Shown piece by piece: positions 17,561-51,964 of a stretch of DNA of 64,000 bases; positions within the stretch are counted from its first letter, which is position 1; every line of letters starts with the position of its first letter. The notes beneath the pieces are model-generated. The model made no database searches, was not told the DNA's origin, and saw only the letters and a list, made by a program, of their open reading frames with translations. A program made the translations under genes and the position numbers. This DNA is from Bartonella sp. HY038. GTDB taxonomy: Bacteria; Pseudomonadota; Alphaproteobacteria; Rhizobiales; Rhizobiaceae. The stretch lies in assembly GCF_014117425.1 (NCBI RefSeq), contig NZ_CP059725.1, positions 2,981,001-3,045,000 on the forward strand, read 5' to 3'.

Positions 17561-17599
17561 TTTTTTACGTTTTTATCTCAGCTCGATTTATCAAACCAA

Positions 17600-19633
17600 C
17601 TATTTTAGCGGCTGTAAATAGGGCAAAGAGCGCAATTTTTGTATTGCTTGGTTAAGTGCATAAATAAGCGTCAATAGCGGATATGCAAGCTTTGCAAATT
17701 CACTATCAGCAAAATCTTGTTCAGCAATAATGGTCGCCATACTGGCAAATTTGCTGAACCCCGCCTGTTGAAGGATAGAACCAGCCTTTTGCAAATTATC
17801 CTTATATCGTTGATTTGCAAAACCAATTTCAGCAATAGATTGAATTTGGTCCAAAGCATCAGCAAGAACAAAATTTGCGCGATCACTTTGTTGAAAGTCA
17901 AAGCGCTTATTTTGAATAGCGTTTAAAAATCGATGCCAACTCCAATTTTTATTGGCAGTTTTGCCATCTAGCCCTAAATTTTCAATCATATTTTTGCAAA
18001 CAACCGCAATTGGCCGCAAGGCAAAGCGCCCTTGCTCAACAACAACATTAGCGACAATCGCATCAACTTTATTGCCTGAATGTAATTCAACCGCAATAAT
18101 GCGCGCTTCCTTATCACTATTATGATCCAATGTTAGCGCCAACCATTGGCCATTACTATCCATAATTGGCCAGATCACTTGTTGACGTAAATCATCAAAA
18201 TAATATTCAAAATTATTGCTTGGCACTAGCAAAACGGGTTGTATTGTCGGGGCAATATTATGAAGTCCTTGCATAAAAGCCTGTTGTAAATCATCAGCCA
18301 AAACCTGCCAATCGCTATAGGCACAAGCAAGATCGGTATAGGTGCCAGTAAAAAGCTTGACATCTTTTGCTATAACGCCTTGCGACATTGATAAACGCCC
18401 TTGGGGGGATGCCAAAGCGCCGGTTAAAGTCAACTGGCTGCGGCTCAAATCCCTTGGTGATTTGCCAAATAAATGCCCAGTATAATAAGCACTATTAGGT
18501 ATAAAGGAAGGATCGACACCCGATGGACGCGCCAAAGCACCACTATACCATTGTTGGTTTTGCGGCGCATAAAAAATTGTACTAACGCCGCGTGCGCCAG
18601 TGGTTGTGCGCCAAATTTCAGCCCCCATCCCCACTAAGTCAATATCACCAATTGGCAGATAATCTTGCCGATAAACACCTGCAAGTTTTATGAAATTTTC
18701 ATCATTTATATTGGTTTTTCTTAAAATACGCACCAACATGGCAATATGAGCAATAAATGGTAAATATTGCTCAATTTCAAATGATAAAGCGCGTTTTCTG
18801 CGCTCGCGAATACGATTTGCTAAAATGCGCAAAAGCGCCGATAATCTTGGTAAAGCATCCGCTCGTGATGATACAGAAAGCGCAAAGATACGCTCCTCTA
18901 AGGCTTTGGGGGCAATATTTAACCCTGTGCGCAAGGCATCTAATAAGGCTTCATCAACACTATCAAGAAAGCCGCTATCGGGTGCTTGCTTTTTAATGAT
19001 TACCGCGTTCTCTTCGCTGACATCATCATTAATGTGCCATTTTCTACGGGCAATCAATAAGGCGGCAATATGAAATATTTTGCGCTTAGCAGGCGATATT
19101 TTCGAGACCATCCCCTCTAGCCCCTGCCCCAAAAGATAGCAAATTTCCTCATCCATGATGAAAATACGAACGCTATTTTTTTCCTCTTTGACGATTGCCC
19201 CCTTAGCCGCAATATCATGAGCTGCCTGCCATCCAGCTTTGCCGGCAAAACGCTGTAGAATAGCTGATGAAAACTCGCAAATCTCGTCACGGGCGCTTTG
19301 GCTTTGCTCCAAGATTTGATCCTTGACTTGATCCTTGGCTCCAAGACCATCCTCAATCGGCAATGCGCGTAAAAATAATGTTGCTGCAAGCTTATGGCGG
19401 CAGACAGACGCGGCAGGGCAACTGCATTTTGCCTTAAGGGGGCCGGCTAAACCCATTGCAACGCTTTCGCCATCCGCCCTAACTGTTGCATTATCACCGT
19501 CACAATCGATAAATGTAACCTTGCCGCCCTCAATATCGCGGGCAGCACGACGCACCAACCCCTTATTCGCTAAAAGTTCAAGCGCACTTTCGTCAAAGGC
19601 TACTAAAGCTTGATGGAGAGCGAGCGATATCAT
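17600..19633 (-). CDS. yehQ: SWIM zinc-finger protein, YehQ-like
   Basis: 677-aa cytoplasmic protein, last gene of the MoxR operon. A SWIM zinc finger lies near the N-terminus with the pattern C70-x-C72-x5-C78-x-H80 (CSCPAASVCRH), a fold that usually binds nucleic acid or protein partners. The remaining 590 aa are helical without recognisable catalytic motifs. The middle contains an arginine-rich helix (LANRIRERRKRALSF), and SDREAR-like charged segments are frequent. Length and position match E. coli YehQ. The ATG at 19633 overlaps the VWA gene stop by 4 nt (ATGA); an upstream TTG is less likely. It may recruit the AAA+ machine to its target, but that is inference. Confidence 0.8.
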   Translation of the reverse strand: MISLALHQALVAFDESALELLANKGLVRRAARDIEGGKVTFIDCDGDNATVRADGESVAMGLAGPLKAKCSCPAASVCRHKLAATLFLRALPIEDGLGAKDQVKDQILEQSQSARDEICEFSSAILQRFAGKAGWQAAHDIAAKGAIVKEEKNSVRIFIMDEEICYLLGQGLEGMVSKISPAKRKIFHIAALLIARRKWHINDDVSEENAVIIKKQAPDSGFLDSVDEALLDALRTGLNIAPKALEERIFALSVSSRADALPRLSALLRILANRIRERRKRALSFEIEQYLPFIAHIAMLVRILRKTNINDENFIKLAGVYRQDYLPIGDIDLVGMGAEIWRTTTGARGVSTIFYAPQNQQWYSGALARPSGVDPSFIPNSAYYTGHLFGKSPRDLSRSQLTLTGALASPQGRLSMSQGVIAKDVKLFTGTYTDLACAYSDWQVLADDLQQAFMQGLHNIAPTIQPVLLVPSNNFEYYFDDLRQQVIWPIMDSNGQWLALTLDHNSDKEARIIAVELHSGNKVDAIVANVVVEQGRFALRPIAVVCKNMIENLGLDGKTANKNWSWHRFLNAIQNKRFDFQQSDRANFVLADALDQIQSIAEIGFANQRYKDNLQKAGSILQQAGFSKFASMATIIAEQDFADSEFAKLAYPLLTLIYALNQAIQKLRSLPYLQPLK

Positions 19634-20775
19634 GAGGATATAACTCCCCCTAGCCAATCTGCCAACCTATCTGGTGTAAGTGCCGCCACCTCCATACCAG
19701 CCTTTGCCAAGCGTTGTGCCATGCTTATATCATAATCAACAATACCATCATCATTAAGGGCTGCAACGCCAAGCATTGTTACTTGCGCACTAGCAAGACG
19801 GCGAATAGCTGCCAATAATTTAGCGGGTGAACCACCTTCACAAAAATCGCTAATTAACACAAAAATGGTTTGGCGTGGTTGCTCGACCAATTGCTCACAA
19901 TAATTCACCGCCATGCCAATATCGGTACCACCACCAAGTTGCACCGACATAAGCACCGAAACAGGATCAGCAAGTTGATCGCTCATATCAACAATGCGCG
20001 TATCAAACAGCACCAACTTTGTTTTAACCGATGAAAGACCACCTAAAATAGAAGCCATGATAGCGGCATAAATAATAGAGCTGGTCATTGATCCCGATTG
20101 GTCAACACATAAAATAATAGTCTTGGAGAAATAGGATCTTGATCGCGAATGAAAGCGCAGCTTATCAGCAATAATGCGGCGATTAACAATATCATAATTT
20201 TTAAGATTATCGCGAATGGTTGCCCGCCAATCAAAATCCTGCATCCGCCGTAAATGGCCGCGCCGAAAACGATTACGCCGCCCTGATGCAGCGCGCTCTA
20301 AGCGCAGTTTTAAGCGCTTTTTTATATCTTCGATAATTTTTTTGGCAATATCGCGAATAGTCGCTTGAATAGCGGGATTGGCTCTATCCTTATAAAGCAT
20401 CAAGCTACGCAAAAGATCTGTGTTCGGAGTTAACGTTTTTAAAGTTTTAGGATCGCTCAATAATTCGGTCATGCCAAGATTGTGCAAAGCATGCCCTTCA
20501 ACCACTTCACATACGGATTTTGGAAAAATCCCACGCAATTGCTCTAGCCAATCAATTGGCTTAACACCACTTGAATCGCGACCTCCTAATGGGCTTTTTT
20601 TCGCATTTTCCTGGCGTAATCCTCTTTGTTTTAATTCGCGTGAATAAAGATAATCAAAAGCTTGGTCGCGCTCAATATCAACACCTCCAAGCTTACAATC
20701 ACTGCCTAGTCCCGTTTCACTATAGCGGCCAAGCACAAGGCGCCAACGGCGTAAACCTTCAACCGAATTGGTCAT
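19630..20775 (-). CDS. yehP: VWA domain protein, YehP-like
   Basis: 381-aa protein with a C-terminal von Willebrand A domain (about 218-381). All MIDAS metal-site elements are present: DQSGS at 225-229, Thr284 in GGGTDIG and Asp310 in LISDF. The N-terminal 210 residues are basic and helical, with an Arg-rich patch (RRNRFRRGHLRRM, about 166-178) that could contact nucleic acid or partners. VWA proteins of this kind act as adaptors or substrates of MoxR AAA+ ATPases. Length and order match E. coli YehP. The start overlaps the DUF5682 gene by 4 nt and the end overlaps the SWIM gene by 4 nt, so production is likely coupled. Confidence 0.85.
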   Translation of the reverse strand: MTNSVEGLRRWRLVLGRYSETGLGSDCKLGGVDIERDQAFDYLYSRELKQRGLRQENAKKSPLGGRDSSGVKPIDWLEQLRGIFPKSVCEVVEGHALHNLGMTELLSDPKTLKTLTPNTDLLRSLMLYKDRANPAIQATIRDIAKKIIEDIKKRLKLRLERAASGRRNRFRRGHLRRMQDFDWRATIRDNLKNYDIVNRRIIADKLRFHSRSRSYFSKTIILCVDQSGSMTSSIIYAAIMASILGGLSSVKTKLVLFDTRIVDMSDQLADPVSVLMSVQLGGGTDIGMAVNYCEQLVEQPRQTIFVLISDFCEGGSPAKLLAAIRRLASAQVTMLGVAALNDDGIVDYDISMAQRLAKAGMEVAALTPDRLADWLGGVISS

Positions 20776-23195
20776 ATAAGCTGCTCCTCCTGCATTTGCG
20801 CCAATACATCTTGCTCAAGAGCCAATCGTTGTAATACCGTGTTTTCATCAAGGCTAGAATGAAGCAATAAAAAATCTTCCTGATGATAATATTTACCAAT
20901 ATTTTTACCAAGCCGATCCAATTCATCTGGATCCAAGCGGCTAAAGGCCAAGCGCAAAAAGGGTAATATTTCAAGGAAACTATCGTCATCAAAACTCGTC
21001 AGCAGCATATCTGCCTTTTCCATTAATTGCGATACACGCCATAATAATTCACGCGAAATCGTAATCACCCCATGAAGCCAACCAACGCGCTCTTCACTCG
21101 TGCTATAAGCTGCCTGTATTTCCCCTGCAAAACGCTCAACCAATTGTTCATCACTTATTTGGCCATTAAGACAAGCAAGGGCGGCAATAGCACCACGTAT
21201 GACGGGCGGCGCATCGGTATTAGTGAGTAAATTTGCAATTCTTTCCTGAAATATTTCCCCATCAAGCTTTGTTGCTTCCCGTTCACTTAAAATAAGCAAT
21301 TCCCGTAAATTCGCTAATGCATCAACAAGAGCCATGCTTTGTTCGTTGTCAGCATGAATAATATTGGGTAGTAAAAACATGGCGCGGCGGTAGCAAATGG
21401 TAATTAAATCACGCACCACTTGCTCATCATCCAAAGCCAGCCATTTACGCGCTTGCCATAAGGCGAGCACCGATTTTAACCCATCAACAACACTTACAAG
21501 ATTAGCATCTGCAATAATTTCTTGTTCAATAAGCGGTAATATTTGCTTTGCAGCCCCTGATAAACCAGCTTCGCAAGCATTAATAAAAAGCCTAACAGCG
21601 CTTGCCGTCTCCCCACCATGCCCATTTTCTTTCAAGGCAGTAATATTGTGAAATAATTGCAACAATAGCGATTTTTGTAATGTGTCACTTTCACTTGCAA
21701 GCTCGATTAAACGCGCCTCGGTCAAGGGTGACCATTGAATGGTCCAGCTTTCAAATAAACGATCTGTTGCATAACCATTGCTAAAATCTGGCCCAGCGGT
21801 GCGACTAGCAAATTGCACATTTAAAAACTTCATTCCATGTAAAAAGCGGCTAATAGCGCGATGTTTTGGTTTGCGATAAATATCAAGAGTACGATTGCGT
21901 GCCTCCCCATCATCAATCTTAATACCTAACACACGCGCTTTAGCAAAAAAATCGCGTAAAAGCGGTGGCACAGCTGCTTTTGACGATATTGCACCAATGG
22001 TAGAACCCGTTAAAAACGAATAAAATTCGGCTAAGATTCCACTGCCTTCGCCACCTTCATGCCCTTTTAGTAAAGCGGTGCGTAAAGCATCTATAATATC
22101 ACTGCGCATTGGCCCTTTATGGCCACGCAACTGCGCCAAGCTATTGGCCATTTCCAACGCATTTACTAAAGCTGGAAATGCGATACGCTCATGGCGCATA
22201 TCTTTGCGCAAATGCGCAATAAATTCGATTACAATTTTTTCTGCAATAATCTCAAAAACGTTACTTGGCTTTGTTTCATCTTCAACAATGCAATTTTGTT
22301 GTTGCCAAAGCCGATCATAATACCAAGGAAAAGGCAAACCACTCATATAACCCGTAAGGGCATTTAACTGACGAAAGCCATAGCGGATCAAATATGATTC
22401 CTCTAGCGTTTCCACGATCTTTGCTTGTTGTGGCGCACGCACCAAATCCAGTAAAACAGGTGCATGGAAACCACCAACAATAATTACGATCGGACCAGTT
22501 TTTTTAGCGCTCTCGCGGGCAATAATTGCCGCCATTTGCGCTTCACGCTCCAAAGTGCCATCACGTTGCAAAAGTTCATCATTGGTAGATTGACGCATAT
22601 GATCACAATAAACACCAATCCCAGAAAATAGACCGCGCCAATCGCTTTCACCAAGCTGTGTTTCAAACATCTGGTCCCATAATTCATCACCATCGCGGCA
22701 ACCAATTTTTTGACAAAGTGCCTTGGTATAATCACTACTATCAAAATAGTCCTTGCTTAAGGGAACGAACTTATTGGCAATATGGCTTTGTTTTTCTTCA
22801 TCACTTTCATCATCGTTAATGTCATTATCGTCAGATGTATCATTTTGAAATCGGGAAAAAATGGGTAGATCAATAAAATGCGTCTCGACCTTGTTTTGGT
22901 GTGCCCATAATAAGCCAATATATTCAGGGCTATGGCTACAAATTGGATAATAGCTGCTACCTAACGCATTTTTAGAGGGAAAAGTAACAATGGCGACTGG
23001 CGGAACAGTGCCATCATCAATGATCTGATCTATAAGGCGATCATAATGATTAGGGCCTTCAATCAGCACCGTTTTAGGCTTGATTTCGTCAAGTAATAAA
23101 CGCACAGCAAAAGCACATGCCGGACTATGATGGCGTACCGGCACAATGGTAATCTGCAACTTTTCATCATAAAGAAAAGACGGATGTTTTGTCAT
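20772..23195 (-). CDS. yehM: DUF5682 family protein, YehM-like
   Basis: 807-aa protein of unknown function. The N-terminus carries the family signature VRHHSPACA (20-28) and LIEGPNHYD (44-52), followed by an acidic low-complexity insert (DDNDINDDESDEE). A later hydrophobic segment, IVIIVGGFHAPVLLDL, has a conserved GGFHAP motif. The N-terminal part recalls TraB/haem-uptake-like hydrolase folds with conserved His and Glu, so an enzymatic role is possible but unproven. The C-terminal half is helical. Length and order match E. coli YehM. The ATG at 23195 overlaps the MoxR stop by 4 nt; an in-frame TTG at 23237 is less likely. It probably forms a complex with the MoxR and VWA proteins. Confidence 0.8.
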   Translation of the reverse strand: MTKHPSFLYDEKLQITIVPVRHHSPACAFAVRLLLDEIKPKTVLIEGPNHYDRLIDQIIDDGTVPPVAIVTFPSKNALGSSYYPICSHSPEYIGLLWAHQNKVETHFIDLPIFSRFQNDTSDDNDINDDESDEEKQSHIANKFVPLSKDYFDSSDYTKALCQKIGCRDGDELWDQMFETQLGESDWRGLFSGIGVYCDHMRQSTNDELLQRDGTLEREAQMAAIIARESAKKTGPIVIIVGGFHAPVLLDLVRAPQQAKIVETLEESYLIRYGFRQLNALTGYMSGLPFPWYYDRLWQQQNCIVEDETKPSNVFEIIAEKIVIEFIAHLRKDMRHERIAFPALVNALEMANSLAQLRGHKGPMRSDIIDALRTALLKGHEGGEGSGILAEFYSFLTGSTIGAISSKAAVPPLLRDFFAKARVLGIKIDDGEARNRTLDIYRKPKHRAISRFLHGMKFLNVQFASRTAGPDFSNGYATDRLFESWTIQWSPLTEARLIELASESDTLQKSLLLQLFHNITALKENGHGGETASAVRLFINACEAGLSGAAKQILPLIEQEIIADANLVSVVDGLKSVLALWQARKWLALDDEQVVRDLITICYRRAMFLLPNIIHADNEQSMALVDALANLRELLILSEREATKLDGEIFQERIANLLTNTDAPPVIRGAIAALACLNGQISDEQLVERFAGEIQAAYSTSEERVGWLHGVITISRELLWRVSQLMEKADMLLTSFDDDSFLEILPFLRLAFSRLDPDELDRLGKNIGKYYHQEDFLLLHSSLDENTVLQRLALEQDVLAQMQEEQLI

Positions 23196-24286
23196 GTGAG
23201 TTTTAAGGCTCGCGCTGCGCTGTAAAATTCCCTCCAAGGGCCTTTTTTACCGGCGCGATCTTTAACTATATAATCAATATAGGCTTTAAATCTTTTGCCA
23301 TCCTCCGGCTCATCTTTTAAAATAACCCCTTGTATTTGGTGGGCGATATGGGCGCCCGATACACTGCCATTATCCAAAAAGGCCGCTTCCAGCGCGGCTG
23401 CTTGCATAACATTTACCGCTTCTGCCGTTGACATAACCGCATCAGGTTTGGTGAGCGCTATCCCCTCACGCGTGCGGCCAGTGCGCAAATCCTGAAAAGT
23501 TTCAACCAAAATATCTATTGTTGCATCTATATTGCTAACCTCAATGCCAAGCGGCGCTAACCTCGCATCAAGCTGTTGGCGCACCAAGGCGCGCTCTTGC
23601 TCGCCATCACTGATTGGATGAACAATTTCAAAATTAAAACGTCTTTTTAAAGCGCTCGACATTTCATTTACGCCGCGATCACGTAAATTGGCCGTTGCAA
23701 TAATATTAAACCCCGGCGCTGCACGCAAAGCATCATTTGAACCAAGTTCAGGTATTGCTAAAGATTTTTCGGACATGATAGAAATCAGCGCATCTTGCAC
23801 TTCCGGCGGGCAACGGGTAATTTCTTCAAAGCGGACGATGCGCCCTTCTTTCATAGCTGAAAAAATCGGGGAAGCAACCAGCGCTCGTTCACTTGGCCCT
23901 TCAGCAAGCAGCAAAGCATAATTCCATGAATAGCGAATATGATCTTCACTGGTACCAGCAGAACCTTGCACAATAAGCCCTGAATGACCGCTAATGGCGG
24001 CGGCTAATAATTCTGATAGTAGCGATTTTGCCGTGCCCGGCTCTCCTGCCAACATCAGCCCTTGCGCACTCATCAAGGAAACAATAGCACGATCAATTAA
24101 ACTATCTTCGCCATAAATCTTACGGGAAATGCCCTTTTTTTCATCACCAACAATGAAACACCGAACAAAACGCGGCGACAACAGCCAACCTTTCGGCTTT
24201 GGTAAATCATCAAGGCTTTTTAAGCTTTGCAATTCATCCGCATAGATTTCTTCAGCAGGTTGCCGCAAACTGGCCTTTTTTTCCAT
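23192..24286 (-). CDS. yehL: MoxR-type AAA+ ATPase, YehL-like
   Basis: 364-aa AAA+ ATPase. Walker A is GEPGTAKS (81-88), Walker B IVRFEE (150-155), sensor 1 IIATAN (195-200) and the arginine-finger region SALKRRF (211-217). MoxR ATPases act as hexameric chaperones or remodelling engines together with VWA proteins. It is the first gene of a four-gene operon in which every junction is an ATGA overlap: MoxR, DUF5682, VWA, SWIM. The start has AAAGG upstream. It is divergent from the first DUF4132 gene across 181 bp. Metal-chelatase use (BchI/BchD type) is less likely because no chelatase large subunit is present. Confidence 0.9.
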   Translation of the reverse strand: MEKKASLRQPAEEIYADELQSLKSLDDLPKPKGWLLSPRFVRCFIVGDEKKGISRKIYGEDSLIDRAIVSLMSAQGLMLAGEPGTAKSLLSELLAAAISGHSGLIVQGSAGTSEDHIRYSWNYALLLAEGPSERALVASPIFSAMKEGRIVRFEEITRCPPEVQDALISIMSEKSLAIPELGSNDALRAAPGFNIIATANLRDRGVNEMSSALKRRFNFEIVHPISDGEQERALVRQQLDARLAPLGIEVSNIDATIDILVETFQDLRTGRTREGIALTKPDAVMSTAEAVNVMQAAALEAAFLDNGSVSGAHIAHQIQGVILKDEPEDGKRFKAYIDYIVKDRAGKKGPWREFYSAARALKLT

Positions 24287-24467
24287 AGACTATGACCTTT
24301 ATATTATAAATATAAGAATACACTAATATTATTTTAGAAAAATTATAATTCTTGTGAATTAAAACATATACTAAAAACTATAATTTACATTGATTTGTAG
24401 TCTTGCCGCCTCATTGAAAATAGATATTATACTTTGCAAGGATCACGTCAATTAAAAAGGGGTAGCT
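24287..24467. promoter_or_regulatory. Divergent promoter region between the MoxR operon and the DUF4132 array
   Basis: 181-bp AT-rich spacer that must start transcription in both directions. On the plus strand CTTGCC followed after about 18 bp by ATTATA is a weak promoter candidate, and AAGGGG sits just before the ATG at 24468. I see no clear operator palindrome. The shared spacer suggests co-regulation of the two units. Confidence 0.4.
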
Positions 24468-27400
24468 ATGAACAGCTTAAAGCTAGGCAGCAATTTGACT
24501 GTTGAAGATACGCCACCCAAAGTTTCATTGGATCGCTACCGGATTACCTCTGGATTAAATAGTATGCGCATGGGAGATTTAACTTTAGCACCAGCCTTAT
24601 GTGATTACATAGAAACTGGCAAAAATGAAGCAATCTTGCTCCAAGCTAGAGGTAAGGCTACAACAACCTATTGCAACCTACATAATGGCAAAATACTATA
24701 TGCATTAAATTATAAATGGCAACCATTAGCTTTTATACGCTTAGGCAAAGTTTTAGCTTCATTATCGCCAATAACAAGTACAAATTATAAGATGCGCGGC
24801 ACTAGCATATCACCAGATTGGTGGCGTTATAGCGTATATTACTTGCAAAATTTAGATCATAGCTCAATTGCGGCTGCCTCTGATGAATTATATGCATTAA
24901 TTCAAAAACCCGGAAAACTTTTGTTAGAATTGGCTGATATTGGCGGCTTAGGCGTTGAAGATATTTTTGACGTATTTATTCACAACTATAATGGTTATCG
25001 CAATGAAGTAATCCTAAAAGACTTCTACGGCATTGAAGATTGGTTCATAGAAAATAGACAAACGATCATCTCTCTCGCCAAGAAACTTCCAAGCAATAAT
25101 ATGATTGAATTTTGCGTTTCTCTTTACAAATTGAATCTCGTCGAACCTTTTACTGATTTCCTAATTGAAGAAACAATGAGTAAAAGCAAAACTGTTCGCC
25201 AAAAAGCATTACTTTCACTAAACCATGCTGATAAAATCATATTAAAAGAACGCATATTGCAGCTTTTTCCAACACAGCCGAGTGCGAACCAAATTTTATT
25301 AGTAAATGCAGTGATCGTACTTTTTAACGAGCAAGCAAAATCAATATTGGAAATATGGAAAAACGATAAAAATCCACCCAAACTTAAAAAAACAATTGAA
25401 GAGCAGTTAAACTTCCAAAACGCCACTGCGCACTCAGCTCAACAAGATTTTTCAAATAGTGGCGGTTCCTATCTTGCTTTAGATGGCAGTATCGTCACTA
25501 TTCCTGCTTATGACAAGGCAAAGGAACAAGTCCATTTCGCTATTAATCCTATTGATGAAAGCTATTTTTTACCGGTTTTTGATGCACTTGCAAATTATAA
25601 TCACCATTTTGATAAATCCTTGGCAAGACGAAATCCAAACGATAAATGGCATTGGACTAAAAACGCAAAAAAACTTGACAAACAGCAGGTCAATAAAGAG
25701 CTGCACGCTATTTTATCGGGAAGTTTAGATAAAGCCTTATCGAGCCATAACTTATTTGACACCCATCAAAAGCGCAATTTTGATACCTCAGGCTTGAAAG
25801 AATTTGCGCAATGTAAAGACCTTTCGCTTTACCAACTCATGCTATTGTTAAATATGGAACATTATGTTGATCATTTATCGAATTTAAGCACTTTTGGGGA
25901 AAATATTTTTGGTCCTGTTATTTTAAAAAAAATGCGTGAAATTGGCGATTGGCGAGTTTTAAACCATATTTGTATTAAACAACAAAGACGCCCAATTTTG
26001 GAGCACCTTTTAACTGCAATGGAATGTTATGATTTGCCCCTTATTCCATTTATAAAGGCTGAAGATCTTTGGACGCTTGTTGCCGAAAATCTTGATCTTC
26101 TTGACCAAGCCTTTAATATTGCTCCTCCAATTGATAATGTCAGCTATCGTTTTGATATTGCATTTTATCTACTAACACTATTACCCAAAGTTCCAATGCG
26201 TTATGCGACAGCCCTCATACTGATGGTGACTGGTAACAACTTGAATGGCAATAGGATAACTCGGCAAGAAAGACAGCAAGCTCGTACGTTATTAGCAGCC
26301 TCACCACAGCTTGATCCTGCTATTTCAGGGCTTTTAGAAAATGAACAAAAAGAAATACGCATTAAAGCAGCCGATTGGCTAAAAAGCCGTAAAGCCGTTT
26401 CGCAAATTCCTGCTTTGCAAGCAGCACTTAAAAAAGAAAAAAATGATGCAGTACGCGGAGCACTTCTTTCTGCACTTCAACATTTAGGTGATGATATTTC
26501 CAGCCACTTTGTAGCAGAAAAATTACTAAGCGAGGCACAAAAGAGATTGGAAAAGGCCAAGGGAAAAGAACTTGATTGGTTTCCTTTTTCCCAATTACCG
26601 CAGGTTACTTGGAACAACGGCAATGCCGTTGACCCTCTGATTATCCGTTGGCTATTAATCCTTGCCACAAAGTTAAAGCAACCGCAAGGCAATCCGATGA
26701 TAACCTTGTGGCTTGATCAATTTACAAAAGAAAGCGCCCATACCCTTGGGGCTTTCATTGTGGAAGCGTGGATTGCCTATGACACGCCAATGACAACCAA
26801 TGAAGAAGCGACAAGTTTTGCTATAGCTCATATTGATCAGCGCTTACAAACCAATTTACAATTAGTTAAGGCAGCACCACAATCTGCATCTTTCTATACA
26901 ACCGACCGCGATTTACTATTTGAAGAACTTCGCCATGAAAAATTAGGCAAATACAAACAAAGCGCGATTGACAGTAAGGGTATTTTAGCCCTCGCAACCC
27001 GTACTGATGGCGCAATCATTGCAGCCATTGGCAGTAGCTATATTAAAAAACATGGCAAGCGCACCGCCCAAGCCAAAGCAATCATTGACATGCTGGCAGG
27101 AAATCCGGCCCCTGCTGCTATCCAAGCAATTTTAGCGGCAGCAACCCGCACCAAACAAAAAACGGTGCAAGACCATGCACGCCAAGCCATTAATGACATT
27201 GCTGAGCAGTATGGTTGGACCTTAGACGAATTGGCTGATCGCACTATTCCAACGGCAGGGCTTGATGATAATGGCGAAGCAGAGCTTGCTTGTGGCAAGG
27301 GGCGAATTTTTAAACTTAAACTCAATGAGCAAGGCAATCTTATTATTTTTAACGATAAGGGCAGCCAAATAAAAAGCTTGCCAACCGCAAGTAATGCGCT

Positions 27401-28220: not shown

Positions 28221-28310
28221 CGTTATAAAACCATCACATATTTTTAATTTAGCACGCGTAAAATTAACAATTAAACTCGTTTGTCATATTATCATCTGAA
28301 AGGGATTAAG

Positions 28311-32123: not shown

Positions 32124-32269
32124 GACTGCATTATTACAATACAGCAAAATACAAAAATATCTATGACTTAATATAGTTTAAAAAAGTCATAAAATACGCA
32201 TGATTAAACTTAAAAATATTAAATATACAAACAAATTTGAATGCATATAACTAACGGGAAGAGATTATT

Positions 32270-36043: not shown

Positions 36044-36066
36044 TTTTTTAGTCTCTACCAATAAAG

Positions 36067-36107
36067 ATTTAGAGCATTTTTCAGCGTAAGCGGTAAATGC
36101 TCTAAAT
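36067..36107. repeat. 13-bp perfect inverted repeat between paralogues C and D
   Basis: ATTTAGAGCATTT (36067-36079) and AAATGCTCTAAAT (36095-36107) form a perfect 13-bp stem with a 15-nt loop. There is no T-run, so it is not a classical terminator. The AGAGC core resembles the ends of rhizobial intergenic mosaic elements, so this may be a shortened member or an RNA-stability hairpin. Confidence 0.7.
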
Positions 36108-36141
36108 CCTAAAATATTTCCCCAAAAGCTAAGGAACAATT

Positions 36142-39951: not shown

Positions 39952-40023
39952 TACAGTTTTTAATAATTATCAGTTGGGTCAATGTGACCTATTTTTCTTA
40001 CCACGAAAATTAAAGGTAAAATA

Positions 40024-43764: not shown

Positions 43765-43868
43765 AGCGTTTTTTTCAAAAAGTGTGAAGCGGTTTTCAGA
43801 CAAAAAACGCGGTGTAAACAATGGATTAGAGCGCTTATCTGATCCAATCAGATCGAAATGCGCTCTAA
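43763..43868. repeat. RIME1-like Rhizobiales intergenic mosaic element
   Basis: About 106 bp with two palindromes. The first is GCGTTTTTTT ... AAAAAACGC around AGTGTGAAGCGG (43767-43810). The second is TAGAGCGC ... GCGCTCTA around CTGATCCAATCAG (43827-43867). The sequence closely matches, from memory, the RIME1 elements scattered in rhizobial genomes. It overlaps the stop codon of paralogue E. It supports the Hyphomicrobiales assignment. Confidence 0.75.
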
Positions 43869-43924
43869 GCTGCTATCAATATTACAGCTTCACGTGAAAT
43901 CTCACGCATTATTGGGGGAATAAT

Positions 43925-46900
43925 ATGAGCCTTTTAAAATCAATCAAAGGATTTTTTTCAACGAATAGCAATGCCGCCAATATTGAAGAAGCTGCAGACT
44001 TTTCCAAGACGCCAAAATTAAATCTTAACCGCAATGCTTTACAAAGATTCTTTAATAAATGCGATATTCATAACCAAGATGTAATCGATAAGCTATGTGA
44101 TTATATTGAAACAGGCAATGAAGAGATTTTACTAAAAATATCGCCAAAAGCGGCACATTGGAACTTTACGCCTTTTGAAAAGCATCATTTATTTCACACC
44201 GCATTTAATGATCAAAGCTATGTTCTTGGCTGTTTTCGGCTTGGCAAAATGATCGAGCATTTGCAACCCAATGATTATAATCTTTCCCACTTATACGGTG
44301 ATCAAGCATCTCCCGTTTGGTGGCGGGCGAGCTTTACATATGCCTTACTTGAGAGCAAAAATAAGGATGAACAAGCCGGCAATCATCCGCACAAAAATTA
44401 TAAAATGACCATTAATGATCTTCATCAATTAGCAAATTTAGGTGGGGCAACGATTGCTGACATTCTTGATATTTTTGTAAATGATCTTTTTGGAGACGGT
44501 ATTACCAATGAGGTAAAAAAGATTGAGAATATCAATCAATGGTTCATTGACAACAAACTGGCAATCACTTCGCTTGCAAAGCAGTTAAATGATGAACAGC
44601 TTTCGCAATTTTTTACTATTTTAAGCTGCCTTAATCTTGGAAATGACTATATCGACCTTTTAATTGCAACGACCATGCATGGTGCAAAGACCGCACGTAA
44701 AAAAGCACTTATGGCATTAATTACAGCAGATAAGGATTTAATTGAAAAAAAATTAACCGATGTTTACGACGAGCAAACACCAGCAAACCGTATTTTATTG
44801 GTCATTGCAGCAATAGCGCTTTTTAACAATGATGCCGCCAATTTATTAAATCATTGGCTGTCAGTTGAAACTTCTGCCAAGCCAAAAGAATTTATTGAGC
44901 AACAATTGGCGTTTTTAAATACTAAAACTTCAAATAGTGAAGTAATAACCCAAGATAGTTGTCTTTCCTATACCGCCCTTGATGGCAGCGTTATAACCGC
45001 ACCTCCTCATAATGTTGATGATGAAATACAGCAAAGTCAGATAGCTTTTATTGAGGATATTTATTACCAAAATTTTTTGCAAGCTATCGAAAACTATAAT
45101 GCCTATTTAAATAATGCCCAAATATTGAGAGACCAAGCATTAAGAGGCCAAAATGACAGTGGATTCTATCCTTACTTAGAGGATAAATTAAATGCCCAAG
45201 CCGCGATAACACAGCTTAAAAATACCATGAATGGTAAAATAGAAAAAGCAGAAGACCTTATTTACGCAATGAAGCTGTTAGAGAAAACCGGCTTTGACAA
45301 TACGGGCATCTCAAACTTTATCAATAACCCAGCTTTGACGCTTTATCAATTATTAGCCTTATTAAAAGTTGTAGCAGATGATCCATATTTTTATCTTGTC
45401 TGCAATTTGCAATCTTCAAACCCATTATGTGCAGCTCTCACCCGCAAAGTCGAAGAGATTGGTGATTGGCGGATAATGGAGCGCATTTGGACGCAAAAAT
45501 TAAACCAACCCTCATTCATTGAGCAATTTTTATCGGATGGCGAAAACAAAAAACTACACTACAAATTTTTTACCTATTGTTATGAAAAATTGGGCGAAAA
45601 TGCTTTTTCATATCTTATCATTGATAATATAAAAACATTTGATGAAGTATTTGGTCTTAGTCCAGTGCAAGCCCAATATAATTACGACATTAACAATGCA
45701 TTTTTCTTATTAAAATTGCTGCCCATGCCGCCAAAACGCTATGCAACGGCAATAATGTTGCTAGCTACTGGCAATAAAATTATGAATATTGGTGTTGTTA
45801 CTAAAAACATCAAAATGCAGGCCCGCAGATTGTTAACTAGTATGCAGGAACTTGATCCAGCAATTACAAAATTATTACAAGATGGGCAACAAAATGTGCG
45901 CGCAAGTGCTGCTGCTTGGCTTGCAAGTCGCAATGCAAAAAAAGAAATTCCAACACTCCAAACCGCACTTAAAAGCGAAAAAAGCGAGGTCGCACGCGCC
46001 GCCTATCTTTGCGCGCTTGAACAGCTAGGCGATGATGTTTCAAATTTTCTTGCGCCTAACACATTGTTACTTGACGCAAAAAGAGGCTTAGCCAAGACAA
46101 GAATTAAAAGTCTTGACTGGTTTCCCTTAGAACAACTCCCACAAGCCCATTGGAAAAATGGTGATGTAGTTGACCCGATAATCTTGCAATGGTGGGTGAC
46201 TTTGGCAGCAAAATTAAAGCAACCAAAGGGCAATGCCATGATGAATTTATGGCTAGACCAATTAAAGCCAGAAGATGCGAACCAATTTGGACTATTTGTG
46301 GCACAAGCTTGGTTTGCTTACGATACCCCCACTTATGGCCTTGATGATGCCCAAGCCTATGCCGCCCGCCTTGTTGATTTAAGTCACACAAACCCGCAAA
46401 GCTTCGCCAGTCAATATCCACAATATGGCTATTTGCTTAGCTTGCATGATGATGAAATGCTTTTTGAAACCATTGTTAAAATGCAAAAGGGTGGATATAA
46501 AAATAATGGTGCCGACACTAAGGGCATTTTAGCTTTAACCACAAAGGTTAAGGCTGCACATATTGCAACTTTGGGCGCTAATTACCTTAAAAAACACAGC
46601 AAACGTGCGGCGCAAGCCAAAGCAATACTTGATATGCTAACTGCAAATGCTACGCCTATTGCACTTCAAATAATTTTAGCTGCATCCAACCGTATCAAAC
46701 AACGTAGCGTAAGAGATTACGCCAAATTAGCTCTTGAAGAAATTGCCGATAAAAATGATTGCAGCCTTGAAGACTTGATTGAGCGCACCATACCAACCGC
46801 AGGGCTTGATGAAAATGGCGAGGCGGAGCTTGAATGTGGAAATGGGCGAATTTTTAAACTAAAGCTTAACCAAAGCGGTGCGCTGATCCTGTTAAACGAC

Positions 46901-47764
46901 CAAGGCAAGGAGGTGAAATCTTTACCCAATGCCAAGGGCGATAATAAGGTTGATAAGGATCTTATAACTGAAGCAAAGAAATTTATAATTGATGCAAAAA
47001 AGGAATTGAAACAAGTTTTCACCTTTCAAACTGCTCGGCTTTTTGAAGATATGTGCTTTGAGCGTCTTTGGTCAACTGCTGATTGGCAAGCCTATATTTA
47101 CGATCACCCAATCATGCGAAACATTGTTTCAAAATTAATTTGGATTGGCATTGATCATGACAAGAACCAAATAAGTTTTCGCCCTTTAGAAGATGGCAGT
47201 TTTACCGATAGTAGCGATAATGCAATATCATTAAACAATATTGAGCACATCAAACTTGCGCATATTACATTGCTTAGAGATTCGCAGGCAAAGGCTTGGC
47301 GCCAGCATCTATCAGATTACGAAGTAAAGCCTTCATTTTTGCAATTACGTGATGACTGGCCAATATTTACGGACGAAATGACCACATTAAACCAAATTGA
47401 TGACCGTAAAGGCTTTATGATTGATAGCTTTAACTTACGAACAATTGCTAATAAATATGGCTATGAGCGTAGCGAGCAAGAAGAGGCTGGGTGGTTTACG
47501 AGCTATCAAAAGCCTTATCGATCAGGTAATTTGGTAGCTAAGATACATTTTACCGGCAACTCCTTGCCTGAAACCAATAGAGTAACTGCTATAACCAGCT
47601 TAAGTTTTCTACATGATGCGGGTATTGGTTTTTATGGTATCTACCCAATAGCGATCAGAGATGTGCCGCCAGTGTTGTTAGTGGAAGCCTTAGCGGATTA
47701 TCACGCCATTGCTGCAAGCGGAACGGGCTTTGATCCTGACTGGCAGAAAAAAACAAGCTTCTAA
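43925..47764 (+). CDS. DUF4132 giant protein, paralogue F
   Basis: 1279 aa, the longest of the array, with GGGGGAA before the ATG. It begins MSLLKSIKGFF, almost the same helix as D, then an Ala/Glu-rich linker. Landmarks: KLCDYIETGNEEILLK (one residue shorter than the others), VLGCFRLGKMI in place of WQPLAYVRL, SPVWWRA, ALDGSVITAPP, the HEAT-like IPTLQTALKSEKSEVARAAYL, and the DUF4132 domain from about residue 944. That domain starts NDCSLEDLIERT, where the Gly-Trp of the other copies is Asp-Cys. The 3' third is nearly identical to that of G at the DNA level, while the N-terminal half is much more diverged, a mosaic pattern. Confidence 0.85.
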   Translation: MSLLKSIKGFFSTNSNAANIEEAADFSKTPKLNLNRNALQRFFNKCDIHNQDVIDKLCDYIETGNEEILLKISPKAAHWNFTPFEKHHLFHTAFNDQSYVLGCFRLGKMIEHLQPNDYNLSHLYGDQASPVWWRASFTYALLESKNKDEQAGNHPHKNYKMTINDLHQLANLGGATIADILDIFVNDLFGDGITNEVKKIENINQWFIDNKLAITSLAKQLNDEQLSQFFTILSCLNLGNDYIDLLIATTMHGAKTARKKALMALITADKDLIEKKLTDVYDEQTPANRILLVIAAIALFNNDAANLLNHWLSVETSAKPKEFIEQQLAFLNTKTSNSEVITQDSCLSYTALDGSVITAPPHNVDDEIQQSQIAFIEDIYYQNFLQAIENYNAYLNNAQILRDQALRGQNDSGFYPYLEDKLNAQAAITQLKNTMNGKIEKAEDLIYAMKLLEKTGFDNTGISNFINNPALTLYQLLALLKVVADDPYFYLVCNLQSSNPLCAALTRKVEEIGDWRIMERIWTQKLNQPSFIEQFLSDGENKKLHYKFFTYCYEKLGENAFSYLIIDNIKTFDEVFGLSPVQAQYNYDINNAFFLLKLLPMPPKRYATAIMLLATGNKIMNIGVVTKNIKMQARRLLTSMQELDPAITKLLQDGQQNVRASAAAWLASRNAKKEIPTLQTALKSEKSEVARAAYLCALEQLGDDVSNFLAPNTLLLDAKRGLAKTRIKSLDWFPLEQLPQAHWKNGDVVDPIILQWWVTLAAKLKQPKGNAMMNLWLDQLKPEDANQFGLFVAQAWFAYDTPTYGLDDAQAYAARLVDLSHTNPQSFASQYPQYGYLLSLHDDEMLFETIVKMQKGGYKNNGADTKGILALTTKVKAAHIATLGANYLKKHSKRAAQAKAILDMLTANATPIALQIILAASNRIKQRSVRDYAKLALEEIADKNDCSLEDLIERTIPTAGLDENGEAELECGNGRIFKLKLNQSGALILLNDQGKEVKSLPNAKGDNKVDKDLITEAKKFIIDAKKELKQVFTFQTARLFEDMCFERLWSTADWQAYIYDHPIMRNIVSKLIWIGIDHDKNQISFRPLEDGSFTDSSDNAISLNNIEHIKLAHITLLRDSQAKAWRQHLSDYEVKPSFLQLRDDWPIFTDEMTTLNQIDDRKGFMIDSFNLRTIANKYGYERSEQEEAGWFTSYQKPYRSGNLVAKIHFTGNSLPETNRVTAITSLSFLHDAGIGFYGIYPIAIRDVPPVLLVEALADYHAIAASGTGFDPDWQKKTSF

Positions 47765-47817
47765 ATAAACTTTGCCTATATTTTATTTAGTATGCATTTA
47801 ATCAATGTGGGGTTGAT

Positions 47818-50800
47818 ATGAGCAATAATCAATATGAGATAAAAATTAGACGCCAGCATATGATGCGTTATTTTAAAGCGTTAAACATTTTAAACAAAAA
47901 ACTCATCTTAGAGTTTTGTGATTATATTGAAACTGGAAAAAATGAAGAACAAATCATAACACTAGCACAACAAAACCAATTGGATTTTATTGAATTTTTT
48001 GATGGCCGTCGCCCACTTCTATCAGCTTTGGGATATAAATGGCAGCCCTTAGCTTATGTTAGATTGGCAAAAATTTTAGCAAATTTAACATCAGAACAAA
48101 ATGCGTTTTATGCTCTATGTGGCACAACAGACTCGCCATTTTTTTGGCGTTACACTATCAATCTTGCCCTGCTTTTGTGCAGTCGTCACTCTAGTTATGT
48201 TATTGACCAATGCCATGAAAATTATTTCCTAACTGCTCCGCGATTTCTTGAATTAGCCCAGTTAAGTGGTGTTTCATCTGCCGATATTCTCGATATCCTC
48301 TTAACCCAATATTATTGCTATGGCTTTGAAAATTTAACTTACGCATTTACGGGTATCGAACAATGGTTTCATGATCAAAGGCATGTGTTAGCACCGCTGA
48401 TAAGCCAAGCTAATCCTGAAAAATTATCCCAATTTTTAAATATCGCCCGCCAACTTCATCTTGCTGATGACTATTTAGATATTTTAATCCATGAAACAAT
48501 GAATGGTGCTAAAAAAAATCGTAATATTGCGATTTTAGCGCTTGCTAGCGCCAATAAAACTTTAATTAAGGACAAGTTACTATTATTATATCCAACACAA
48601 TCGAGCACCAAACGCATTCTTTTAATCATGGCAACAATTGCCATTTTCGAATATCGAGCAATTGAAATATTAAAGCTTTGGCTTAATGATGAACACAGCA
48701 CCAAGCCCAAATCTACCCTTGAACAACAGCTTTCCTTTTTAAATATCAATAATACTACGGAAGATGAGCAAGCTATCAACGGTCAATTGTCCTATAAAGC
48801 CCTTGATGGAACGAAGATATCAGCCCTACCTTGTGCCTTTGACAATATAGAAAAACAACGCGACTTTAGCAAAATTGATAAGAAATATTATCAAGACTTT
48901 GCTGAGGTAATTAACAACTACAATAAAACTACCAGTTACGTCATAGACTGCGATAAATATCTCAGCGAATTTGAGCATATTATGAATGGTGGTGATTTTG
49001 AAGGCCAGCCACTGAGTTATCTTATCAGCATATTATTACGAGATCGCCAAGGCCGCAAAGCGTTGGAGCAATGCATTTGTGATCCTTCTTTATCCTTGTT
49101 TCAGATTTTAATATTCTGGAAAAGTACAATTTCCAATTTTCCTAATTATTTTTTTTCCACCCGTATTGAACACAAAATAATCAATAAGGCGCTGATAAGT
49201 AAAATAAAAGAAATTGGTGACTGGCGCGCTTTTGATCGTATCATCGTGCAACAATGGCAATCCCCCACCATTATCGAAATATGTTTAGCCAATAAATATA
49301 GTAAACAGCAATATTTTAATCAATTGCAGGACTATATCCAAAAAACTAGCAAAGATGCATTTTGGCCAATGATAATGGATAATGCTGCGCTTTTAGACCA
49401 GGCCTTAGGGCTAGCCCCAATACAAGACCAAAAGCAGTATTTTGTTGAAAATGCGCTTCTTCTATTAAAAATGCTACCACAAATTCCCATGCGTTATGCA
49501 ACCGTATTAACGATGATCGCAACTGGGCAAGGTGTAAGCAATTCGGTCATTAAAAAACCAACAAAATTGCTATCACGTGAATTGCTTAATGGTATGCCAA
49601 AACTTAATCTGGCAATAGCAAAATTATTACAAGATGGGCAACAAAATGTGCGCGCAAGTGCTGCTGCTTGGCTTGCAAGTCGCGATGCTAAGAGCGAAAT
49701 TCCAGCATTAAAAGCCTTTCTAAAGAAAGAAAAGCATGAGATTGTACGTGCAGCGTTTCTAAGCGCCCTTGAGCAATTAAAGGTTGATATTTCAAATTTT
49801 CTTGCGCCTAAAATATTATTACTTGAGGCAAATAACGGCTTAGCCAAAACAAAAATTAAAACTCTTGAATGGTTTCCATTTGACCAAATTCCACAAGCCC
49901 ATTGGAAAAATGGTGATATAGTTGACCCAATAATTTTGCAATGGTGGGTAACATTAGCAGCAAAATTAAAGCAGCCAAAGGGCAATGCCATGATGGATCT
50001 TTGGCTAGATCAACTAAAGCCAGAGGATGCGAACCAATTTGGACTATTTATAGCACAAGCTTGGTTTGCTTATGATACACCGACATATGGTGGTGATGAA
50101 GCCAATATTTTAGCGGCTGAAATTATAAAAATGCGTCAAATGCATATAACTATTTTCGCCAATCATTACACACATTATAATCGCTTTTCTTACTTATCTG
50201 ATGATTTGCTGTTTGAAAAAATTCGTCAAACGGAAAAAGGCAATTATAAAAATAGTGGTGCTGATGCTAAGGGTATTCTAGCGCTGACAACAAGAGTTAA
50301 AGGCACTGATATTGCTAATTTAGGTGCAAATTATCTTAAAAAGCATAGCAAGCGTGTTTCCCAAGCTAAAGCGATTATCGATATATTGGTAAAAAATCGC
50401 TCGCCTGCCGCCATTCAAGTTGTTGTAAATACGGCTAATCGCACCAAGCAACAAAGTGTTCAAGATTATGCCAAACAAGCAGCAGAAGAGATCGCTGATA
50501 AAAATGGTTGGACGCTTGAAGAGCTAGCCGAGCGCACCATTCCAACCGCAGGGCTTGATGAAAATGGCGAGGCGGAGCTTGAATGTGGAAATGGGCGAAT
50601 TTTTAAACTAAAGCTTAACCAAAGCGGTGCTCTTATCTTGTTAAACGATGAAGGCAAGGAGGTGAAATCTTTACCCAATGCCAAGGGCGATAATAAGGAT
50701 GATATAGATCTTATAACCGAAGCAAAGAAATTTATAATCGATGCAAAAAAGGAATTGAAACAAGTTTTCACCTTTCAAACTGCCCGGCTTTTTGAAGCTA

Positions 50801-51516
50801 TGTGCTTTGAGCGTCTTTGGTCAACTGCTGATTGGCAAACCTATATTTTCAATCATCCTATCATGAGGCATATTGTTACAAAACTGATTTGGATCGGCGT
50901 AAATCAGGAAAGAAAGCAGCAAATCATATTTCGCCCACTTGATGATGGCAGTTTTACGGGCGTTAATGATGCTGAAATAACATTAACAGATTTTACAGCA
51001 ATTAAACTTGCTCATGCTAATCTGGTAGGTGAGCAGGAAGCTGCAGCTTGGCGCAAACATTTATCAGATTATGAAATAAAACCTGCTTTTAAACAACTAC
51101 GCGTCGACTTACCGATAATCCCTGATGAACTGGAAGAGCTTAACGAAATTGATGATCGCAAAGGCTATATGATTGATAGCATTCAACTACAAAAAGCTGC
51201 ATATAGCTATGGTTACGAACGCGGTACCATTGAGGAATATGGGTACTTTTACAGTTATCGGCGGCGTTATCCTAGCGTTAATCTGGTTGCCCAGATTTAT
51301 TTTACTGGCAGCCCACTACCTGAAACCAATATGCCCACCGCTATCACACATTTGAGTTTTGCCGATGGCTCGGGTAATGATTATCATACCGCAGAGGTAA
51401 TTGCGTTAAAAGACGTGCCACCAGTCTTATTAGTTGAAACTCTAGCCGATTATCACGCCATTGCTGCAAGCGGAACGGGCTTTGATCCTGACTGGCAGAA
51501 AAAAACAAGCTTCTAA
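47818..51516 (+). CDS. DUF4132 giant protein, paralogue G
   Basis: 1232 aa, the shortest and last copy, starting 53 bp after F with GGGG before the ATG. The N-terminus (MSNNQYEIKIRRQHMMRY) lacks the MSL helix. Landmarks: EFCDYIETGKNEEQI, WQPLAYVRLAKIL, a PFFWRY variant of DWWRY, ALDGTKISALP, the HEAT-like IPALKAFLKKEKHEIVRAAFL, and the DUF4132 domain from about residue 895 (NGWTLEELAERTIPTAGL). Parts of the N-terminal half (ETM-x-AK, YPTQSS) are closest to paralogue A, while the C-terminal third is almost that of F. It therefore looks like a chimera made by recombination between copies. A small orphan gene follows 22 bp later. Confidence 0.85.
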   Translation: MSNNQYEIKIRRQHMMRYFKALNILNKKLILEFCDYIETGKNEEQIITLAQQNQLDFIEFFDGRRPLLSALGYKWQPLAYVRLAKILANLTSEQNAFYALCGTTDSPFFWRYTINLALLLCSRHSSYVIDQCHENYFLTAPRFLELAQLSGVSSADILDILLTQYYCYGFENLTYAFTGIEQWFHDQRHVLAPLISQANPEKLSQFLNIARQLHLADDYLDILIHETMNGAKKNRNIAILALASANKTLIKDKLLLLYPTQSSTKRILLIMATIAIFEYRAIEILKLWLNDEHSTKPKSTLEQQLSFLNINNTTEDEQAINGQLSYKALDGTKISALPCAFDNIEKQRDFSKIDKKYYQDFAEVINNYNKTTSYVIDCDKYLSEFEHIMNGGDFEGQPLSYLISILLRDRQGRKALEQCICDPSLSLFQILIFWKSTISNFPNYFFSTRIEHKIINKALISKIKEIGDWRAFDRIIVQQWQSPTIIEICLANKYSKQQYFNQLQDYIQKTSKDAFWPMIMDNAALLDQALGLAPIQDQKQYFVENALLLLKMLPQIPMRYATVLTMIATGQGVSNSVIKKPTKLLSRELLNGMPKLNLAIAKLLQDGQQNVRASAAAWLASRDAKSEIPALKAFLKKEKHEIVRAAFLSALEQLKVDISNFLAPKILLLEANNGLAKTKIKTLEWFPFDQIPQAHWKNGDIVDPIILQWWVTLAAKLKQPKGNAMMDLWLDQLKPEDANQFGLFIAQAWFAYDTPTYGGDEANILAAEIIKMRQMHITIFANHYTHYNRFSYLSDDLLFEKIRQTEKGNYKNSGADAKGILALTTRVKGTDIANLGANYLKKHSKRVSQAKAIIDILVKNRSPAAIQVVVNTANRTKQQSVQDYAKQAAEEIADKNGWTLEELAERTIPTAGLDENGEAELECGNGRIFKLKLNQSGALILLNDEGKEVKSLPNAKGDNKDDIDLITEAKKFIIDAKKELKQVFTFQTARLFEAMCFERLWSTADWQTYIFNHPIMRHIVTKLIWIGVNQERKQQIIFRPLDDGSFTGVNDAEITLTDFTAIKLAHANLVGEQEAAAWRKHLSDYEIKPAFKQLRVDLPIIPDELEELNEIDDRKGYMIDSIQLQKAAYSYGYERGTIEEYGYFYSYRRRYPSVNLVAQIYFTGSPLPETNMPTAITHLSFADGSGNDYHTAEVIALKDVPPVLLVETLADYHAIAASGTGFDPDWQKKTSF

Positions 51517-51538
51517 ATTAAAACAGCAAAGTTGAACC

Positions 51539-51964
51539 ATGTGGAACTATATAGCCGATATTGAAAACTTAAAGAAGTTTCGAAGTGAAATTGATGATGA
51601 AACATTTCAATACATAACAGATCTTTGGTTTTATGACCCCGATAGCCATACATCTTTACACGATGCATGGCTGGTATCGTTAAATATAAACTATGGCAAA
51701 ACAAAAGATCTGTTGCAACGAAAGTTTGAACCCGTCAATCTGCAACTATCCCTTTTAGGAGCCTATCATGACCAAATCATTGATATCTTCTATGAAGATG
51801 TTTTACAATATAAAATAGAAGGTAATGGTGATTTATCGGACTTGTTAACCCATAAATTCGCTTGGCATGACGATCACCTTTGCCACGAACTTTGCTTTGC
51901 AATGGGCAAACTTGTCATTGAATTTAAAAATGTAAAATTTAAAGTTTCAAGCATAGAAGAATGA
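51539..51964 (+). CDS. Hypothetical 141-aa acidic protein at the end of the DUF4132 array
   Basis: Small cytoplasmic protein, not recognised. It has conserved-looking phrases HDAWLVSL, LLGAYHDQIIDIFYEDV, FAWHDDHLCHELCFAMG and VIEFKNVKFKV, with many aromatic and acidic residues. This composition is common in small immunity-type or adaptor proteins found next to polymorphic toxins, but this is only an impression. It starts 22 bp after paralogue G on the same strand with only a poor ribosome-binding site, so it is probably read from the array transcript. It could equally belong to the type VI module that lies beyond it in the opposite direction. Confidence 0.6.
   Translation: MWNYIADIENLKKFRSEIDDETFQYITDLWFYDPDSHTSLHDAWLVSLNINYGKTKDLLQRKFEPVNLQLSLLGAYHDQIIDIFYEDVLQYKIEGNGDLSDLLTHKFAWHDDHLCHELCFAMGKLVIEFKNVKFKVSSIEE

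Follow-up and report, generated by a model that had tools for sequence, protein, structure and literature searches.

The 64-kb stretch of Bartonella sp. HY038 DNA analysed here (the window; positions are counted from its first base) carries four overlapping minus-strand genes for MoxR, DUF5682, VWA and SWIM proteins, which form one operon (the core operon), and, 181 bp away on the opposite strand, seven head-to-tail DUF4132 genes at 24468–51516 (D1–D7). A MoxR-DUF5682-VWA-SWIM operon divergent from seven DUF4132 genes had been proposed in an initial annotation of this DNA and was confirmed by profile matches and intact reading frames; the accompanying claim that the operon follows Escherichia coli yehL-yehM-yehP-yehQ in order was borne out against strain K-12.

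Within the core operon, the MoxR-type AAA+ ATPase (YehL-like, 364 amino acids (aa), 23192–24286, minus strand) matched PF07728 (AAA_5) at E = 1.6e-34 and is 51% identical to K-12 YehL. The DUF5682 protein (YehM-like, 20772–23237, minus strand, with an in-frame ATG at 23195 as a possible start) matched its family at E = 1.1e-103 and YehM at 25% identity, and the VWA_CoxE protein (YehP-like, 381 aa, 19630–20775, minus strand, MIDAS-type motif DQSGS) matched PF05762 at E = 7.9e-47 and YehP at 37% identity. The SWIM-domain protein (YehQ-like, 685 aa, 17600–19657, minus strand) gave a Pfam match under its cut-off (E = 0.022), yet contains the C-x-C-x5-C-x-H motif (CSCPAASVCRH), and is 32% identical to YehQ over just 84 aa. 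In the predicted structure of the DUF5682 protein the N-terminal part may have a ChaN/EreC-like fold, followed by a helical C-terminus; Foldseek returned no match at E ≤ 0.001, and 0 solved relatives were found by sequence search. The divergent moxR and D1 genes leave a computed gap of 181 bp (24287–24467). A promoter scan gave 73 promoter-like matches against 60.9 expected in the stretch scanned, and neither this nor the result of a terminator scan was far above chance.

All seven array genes, on the plus strand and separated by gaps of 53–160 bp, scored above the DUF4132 cut-off (96.6–123.7 bits against 27), contain no internal stop, and are the sole DUF4132 matches in the 3.6-Mb genome. They are D1 (1250 aa, 24468–28220, PF13569 E = 1.2e-29), D2 (1270 aa, 28311–32123, E = 2.8e-32), D3 (1257 aa, 32270–36043, E = 1.3e-34), D4 (1269 aa, 36142–39951, E = 1.1e-35), D5 (1246 aa, 40024–43764, E = 2.6e-33), D6 (1279 aa, 43925–47764, E = 2.2e-27) and D7 (1232 aa, 47818–51516, E = 1.8e-30). 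The D2 open reading frame (ORF) was listed from 28281, and the ATG at 28311 is the more likely start, giving 1270 aa like protein P0002. The nearest database proteins came from 'Bartonella sp. HY761', with orthologues of D1, D2, D3 and D5 there at 98%, 95%, 90% and 97% identity; the D6 orthologue P0007 is 98% identical, and the database protein for D7, P0006, is 14 aa shorter. Pairwise identity among D1–D7 is 40–53%, with D2/D3, D4/D5 and D6/D7 as the closest pairs. An assembly artefact or a recent copy amplification was ruled out by these identities and by the five copies with orthologues elsewhere. Congener G026, the one other genome of the genus compared, is without DUF4132; in an empty-site comparison with it, made with window DNA outside 19901–51499, the matching flank pieces were scattered, none lying within window positions 9249–19900. 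From predicted folds (the D3 model, residues 61–1257, has a predicted local distance difference test score of 89.9), DUF4132 proteins would be long solenoids of HEAT repeats, variable in the N-terminal part and conserved in the C-terminal DUF4132 module. The initial annotation had run to 51964; the array ends at 51516, and the remainder takes in a 141-aa ORF (51539–51964, plus strand, 22 bp past D7) with no family and no detectable DUF4132 similarity; in position it recalls yehK, the neighbour of yehI, which has 105 aa and likewise belongs to no family.

Of 302 confirmed DUF4132 relatives from named genomes, the best 80 were used to assess linkage, a sample that favours the window's subtype. 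Core genes lay on the same piece as DUF4132 in 78/80 loci (all four in 74, some in 4), and in the two coreless loci (L057, L080) the DUF4132 gene runs off the contig end. The SWIM family gave a hidden Markov model match in 75/80 loci. The last DUF4132 gene stands before the nearest MoxR gene in 67 of the 75 loci with both MoxR and SWIM, and not in the other 8. DUF4132 is co-directional with the core in the 78 core-bearing loci, save one additional opposite-strand copy in L021, and the divergent layout of the window is absent among the sampled comparison loci; strand arrangement was treated as a variable, non-defining trait of the yeh system, to which the window fits by its MoxR, DUF5682, VWA, SWIM order and by neighbouring genes of HEAT-DUF4132 architecture. 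In a draw of 398 genomes across the phylum, DUF4132 was found in 11 and DUF5682 in 14 (two best DUF5682 candidates scored per genome). DUF5682 bit scores were split by us into groups of 658–865 and 328–371, with the sub-cut-off G343 (19.3 bits) excluded from both, and 9/9 genomes of the lower-score group also carry DUF4132, 8/9 within 10 kb on one contig (Fisher p = 8.7e-17, shared ancestry ignored). The 78/80 linked loci and the 9/9 lower-group genomes support the array and the core operon being one system, as the initial annotation had suggested.

The genome has another MoxR-DUF5682-VWA operon (L008, G000:C1:3198000-3217900; 3206791), which shares MoxR, DUF5682 and VWA with the window by sequence match, but is without DUF4132, carries the other DUF5682 subtype (higher-score group, 717 bits against 348 for the window's), and is kept in congener G026. 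Its order is presumably SWIM-DUF5691-MoxR-DUF5682-VWA, the names SWIM and DUF5691 for the first two proteins being our assumption.

The K-12 locus reads yehH (a pseudogene), yehI, yehK, yehL, yehM, yehP, yehQ. Here yehH is a broken DUF4132 gene, of which two open pieces still match the family profile, and the earlier statement that E. coli has essentially one DUF4132 gene holds for K-12 only: among nine sampled strains, seven have two annotated (one of these with a broken yehI) and ECamp083 has three. Three DUF4132 genes, one frameshifted, are present in JSWP006, broken copies are annotated in several strains, and in S3, one of the nine strains, the yeh locus is rearranged by insertion sequences.

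Across the 80 comparison loci, full-length DUF4132 genes number one in 72, two in 6 and four in 1 (Gilliamella L085), with none unbroken in 1; partial or split copies occur in 7/80 (L039, L041, L048, L069, L076, L078, L087). DUF4132 matches were found in 14/35 Gilliamella genomes (1 in two, 2 in six, 3 in three, and 4, 7 and 8 in one each), counts that take in fragments and, for G533, matches spread over several contigs. In Gilliamella G504, eight full-length copies and a truncated one are lined up ahead of the core operon, which rules out seven as a record number. Large arrays are rare, but a tandem expansion, called unusual in the initial annotation, is not unique to this genome. As controls, 25/149 genomes from the genus of L061 (Acinetobacter) scored above the DUF4132 cut-off with two copies at most, and 7/149 from the family of L032 (Proteus) carried DUF4132, each as a single copy. 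Three tandem genes of a shorter divergent subtype (frames of 1014–1047 aa) adjoin a core operon in L106 (G293, about 9895–19050). In a FastTree phylogeny of 125 sequences, with long branches flagged, the window copies and their orthologues formed one clade among mostly alphaproteobacterial relatives (support 100), and the Gilliamella copies, with Frischella nested, formed another among gammaproteobacterial relatives (support 100). Since the two clades are distinct, the window and Gilliamella arrays appear to be separate expansions.

What is new here is segmental hypervariability of the N-terminal solenoid. D3 is 57% identical to its HY761 orthologue over approximately residues 11–230 (32300–32959, plus strand, edges approximate) but 97% identical outside this block, and the change is abrupt at about residue 231; in D1 numbering the segment spans 17–231. 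A similar step separates the third copies of Gilliamella G516 and G535, which are 59% identical over residues 41–320 and 99% thereafter (fourfold-site identity 0.42 and 0.96, respectively), in genomes whose core genes are 97–99.5% identical. The N-block of the G516 copy matches one copy of the G504 array at 93% identity, although the C-parts of the two are only 72% identical, which argues that the N-terminal segment moved between paralogue lineages. The remaining two G516 copies match those of G535 at 45–75% only, despite the near-identical core. Between D6 and D7, six runs of 40–89 identical bases were found, five of them in the last third; the main tract (46748–47107 in D6, 50497–50856 in D7, both plus strand) is gene-conversion-like, with a fourfold-site identity of 0.90 (40 sites) where the N-half has 0.29 (55 sites).

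The same contrast was observed within E. coli, where divergence of the DUF4132 N-region exceeds that of the C-terminus and, for the most part, that of the core operon. Identity to K-12 was below 90% in 579/5277 and 916/5239 matching records for two yehI N-half blocks, and in 0/5186 and 0/5283 for a yehI C block and a yehM block; these counts are of records with a megablast match, so that very divergent alleles drop out rather than entering the low band. In 200-nt windows (9–12 strains), the first two thirds of both DUF4132 genes, counted from the N-terminus, diverged by 4–28%, the C third by 2–8% and yehL-Q by 1–10%, with ranges overlapping at the edges.

Taken together, these results give roughly even chances that a conserved system of five families (DUF4132, MoxR, DUF5682, VWA and SWIM) is present here in expanded form, in which variable recognition proteins are served by one AAA+/VWA machine. 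An exchanged or deeply polymorphic N-solenoid beside a nearly constant C-terminus and ATPase operon points to target recognition, and we tentatively propose, at less than even confidence, that DUF4132 arrays are variable recognition receptors, with exchangeable N-solenoid segments on a constant C platform and a shared MoxR-VWA-DUF5682-SWIM readout, present as 2–3 genes in sampled E. coli and separately amplified to 7–8 elsewhere. A repertoire of binding modules on the common platform would be generated by tandem duplication, loss, exchange of N-segments among alleles and paralogues, and gene conversion in the C-part. The C-terminal DUF4132 part would dock to the shared MoxR-VWA machine, which, once the solenoid has bound a variable partner, would remodel the DUF4132 protein or its target, and DUF5682, whose predicted N-domain fold may resemble ChaN and erythromycin esterase, may contribute hydrolysis or the handling of a small molecule. 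The variability would most likely serve to recognise biological targets that themselves change, such as molecules of phages, plasmids, rivals or hosts. If correct, tandem paralogues would here make up a class of bacterial recognition repertoire.

Several results weigh against this reading. No array without the MoxR operon, which the initial annotation had named as a refuting observation, was seen, but lone DUF4132 genes exist, with no core gene in L105 (Gilliamella G518, 20 kb) or L011 (G065, 17 kb), and G107 and G297 have DUF4132 yet no DUF5682 match among the two best candidates scored per genome. Three of the nine E. coli loci (L131, L132, L133) keep DUF4132 although core genes next to it are annotated as broken (a truncated yehP in one, a frameshifted yehM in another, both yehL and yehM in the third). 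The ratio of nonsynonymous to synonymous divergence (dN/dS) was below 1 in every region, so positive selection was not seen and omega above 1 was ruled out; in the two E. coli DUF4132 genes it was 0.15–0.27 before codon 850 (0.16–0.27 for codons 20–650) and 0.08–0.12 after. Synonymous divergence (dS) was raised in 3/4 regions before codon 650 (0.32–0.55, against 0.12–0.20 in the rest of the two genes and in yehM and yehL; yehI codons 300–650, at 0.17, were not raised). Because dS was raised while dN/dS stayed below 1, the N-terminal excess is better read as old or imported alleles than as omega above one. The window N-halves were no more divergent than those of single-copy genes of equal C-half divergence in 20/21 pairs, the exception being D6/D7, the pair of highest C-half identity (2/28 pairs were exceptions in G504), which rules out an array-specific acceleration of the N-half and argues that the variability is a family property that the array multiplies. 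The initial suggestion of a diversifying system stands insofar as DUF4132 diversifies by segment exchange; the N-half contrast is family-wide and not specific to arrays. Low-identity segments also occurred in single-copy pairs, with the three strongest of 182 pairs coming from the window and Gilliamella sets, and clear chimaeras, called at one threshold that we set, numbered 2/53 among multi-copy or array rows (both sides of one event) and 0/72 among single-copy rows.

The remaining points of this kind concern a role in conflict. yehI was matched in 5283/5426 E. coli genomes, unlike a patchy defence island; DUF4132 or DUF5682 was confirmed in 0 viral contigs in two scans, and DUF4132 was found in none of the phage collections. 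A PADLOC-DB 2.0 scan of the core proteins, D1, D2 and D3 gave no clear match: at E ≤ 0.001 only the SWIM protein was hit, weakly (candidate PDC-S62, residues 20–125, E = 7.6e-05), and above that value MoxR matched IetA (0.01) and REase_II (0.027) and D1 matched just HEAT-ARM_XIII (0.0058), with no match for D2, D3, VWA or DUF5682. On the other side, a mobilizable Iodobacter plasmid (L121, 7336–24740) carries the core (with a hypothetical gene after, and overlapping, the SWIM gene), a full DUF4132 gene, a short one of 657 aa, and a type I restriction system, from which mobility of the system is possible, and sub-threshold nSTAND3-like or PLD-nuclease genes adjoin three Gilliamella loci (G504, G516, L076). 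A protein of ~1550 aa with a sub-cut-off nSTAND3 match adjoins the core in two Gilliamella genomes (L092, 303–4955; L096, 4243–8883), and that of L092, the one of the two that was scanned, matched the defence candidate PDC-M54A at E = 1.8e-10; this neighbour scan covered few proteins with no control set and is not taken to demonstrate a defence island. A conflict role is therefore plausible but unproven: carriage beside a restriction system and the sub-threshold neighbours speak in its favour, and it is weakened by the near-universality of yehI in E. coli, the absence from phage and viral collections and the lack of a convincing defence-model match.

A rather unlikely alternative is that the MoxR-VWA pair, with DUF5682 and SWIM, is a maturation chaperone that loads a cofactor into, or remodels, DUF4132 clients (enzymes or MolR-type regulators), in the manner of NorQD, RavA-ViaA or CoxDE, the array being a set of client isoforms. 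Characterised MoxR-VWA pairs act so in the accessible parts of the sources (PMC7159879, PMC9976466, PMC13036017), the window VWA is of the CoxE type, a near-universal yehI would suit such a function, and, in the accessible part of PMC4245954, deletion of molR1 shows a synthetic interaction with lepA in E. coli, where molR is tabulated as a molybdenum-utilisation regulator. Housekeeping clients, however, need no N-block exchange or deep within-species alleles, and need not range from 0 to 8 matches inside one genus, as in Gilliamella. A role for the array in genotoxic-stress or nucleic-acid sensing, in which WGR-DUF4132 relatives sense damage, MoxR-VWA resets them and expansion tunes stress responses, draws on the annotation of some E. 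coli relatives as WGR and DUF4132 proteins and on DR2173 (WGR) and DRA0166 (DUF4132), which the accessible text of PMC8533742 names in connection with operons upregulated on depletion of the DdrO repressor in Deinococcus. We hold it very improbable, given that segment swaps would be unexpected in a sensor of invariant damage and that, unlike those E. coli copies, the seven window proteins gave no WGR match at E up to 0.1.

Diversification might also be mimicked by near-neutral expansion, in which weak constraint on the N-half, relaxed selection and recombination among the repeats act without any function in the diversity itself. The higher, though still sub-unity, dN/dS of the N-half, its faster change in single-copy genes as well, and the partial, split and broken copies noted above are what this would predict. 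Relaxed constraint alone is nevertheless insufficient, because synonymous divergence was raised together with amino acid divergence in the G516/G535 block and in 3/4 E. coli N-half regions; the seven window copies are all intact, five of them with close orthologues at 90–98% identity, and large expansions occurred in two lineages, so that near-neutral expansion is improbable.

The surroundings of the locus were also annotated. To the left of the operon (9366–17560) lie genes for malonate decarboxylase, a MadM symporter and a GntR/FCD regulator. Near the array, a VgrG-like spike is present as two minus-strand ORFs (55924–58496), with Phage_GPD at 57537–58496 and Phage_base_V and gp5 C-terminal domains at 55924–57540; downstream of these lie small unassigned ORFs and a DUF2515 protein (53817–54383). 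A HEPN_LA2681 protein is encoded at 59769–60326 (plus strand, E = 8.7e-42), and the right flank (60770–64000) ends at an rRNA operon (tRNA-Met, 5S, 23S).

Literature searches returned, in the material found, no description of a DUF4132 system, no paper pairing DUF4132 with MoxR, no informative paper on the Bartonella sp. HY strains and no assigned function for the E. coli yeh locus; a search on yehI, yehM, yehP and yehQ plus phage listed nothing beyond a genome announcement. YehL is a named subfamily of MoxR ATPases in the accessible part of PMC3893208. The MoxR-vWA ternary conflict systems with VMAP, iSTAND, FtsH or beta-propeller components, whose MoxR-vWA pair is derived from CoxD-CoxE (Kaur et al. 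2020, PMC7159879), resemble the window, as far as the accessible text goes, in combining MoxR and VWA with a further conserved component and a fast-evolving one, but there the variable part is the VWA C-terminal effector, and here it is a separate HEAT protein. VMAP, iSTAND, FtsH and beta-propeller gave no Pfam match in the operon or D1–D7, with bpMoxR below its cut-off (22 against 27 bits), and YehL, DUF4132, DUF5682 and SWIM do not occur in the main text of PMC7159879. RavA-ViaA, NorQD and CoxDE likewise pair an AAA+ MoxR with a VWA co-chaperone, but are mentioned, in the accessible parts of the sources, without DUF4132, DUF5682 or SWIM partners, and the window VWA matched the ViaA model at E = 0.0035 only. 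The E. coli yehH/yehI-yehK-yehLMPQ locus shares with the window its four core families and their order, adjoining tandem DUF4132 genes and N-terminal hypervariability, and differs in being co-directional and in having two or three DUF4132 genes in intact loci against the window's divergent seven. This comparison makes the function of the yeh locus testable, given the laboratory strains of E. coli and the thousands of alleles already sequenced.

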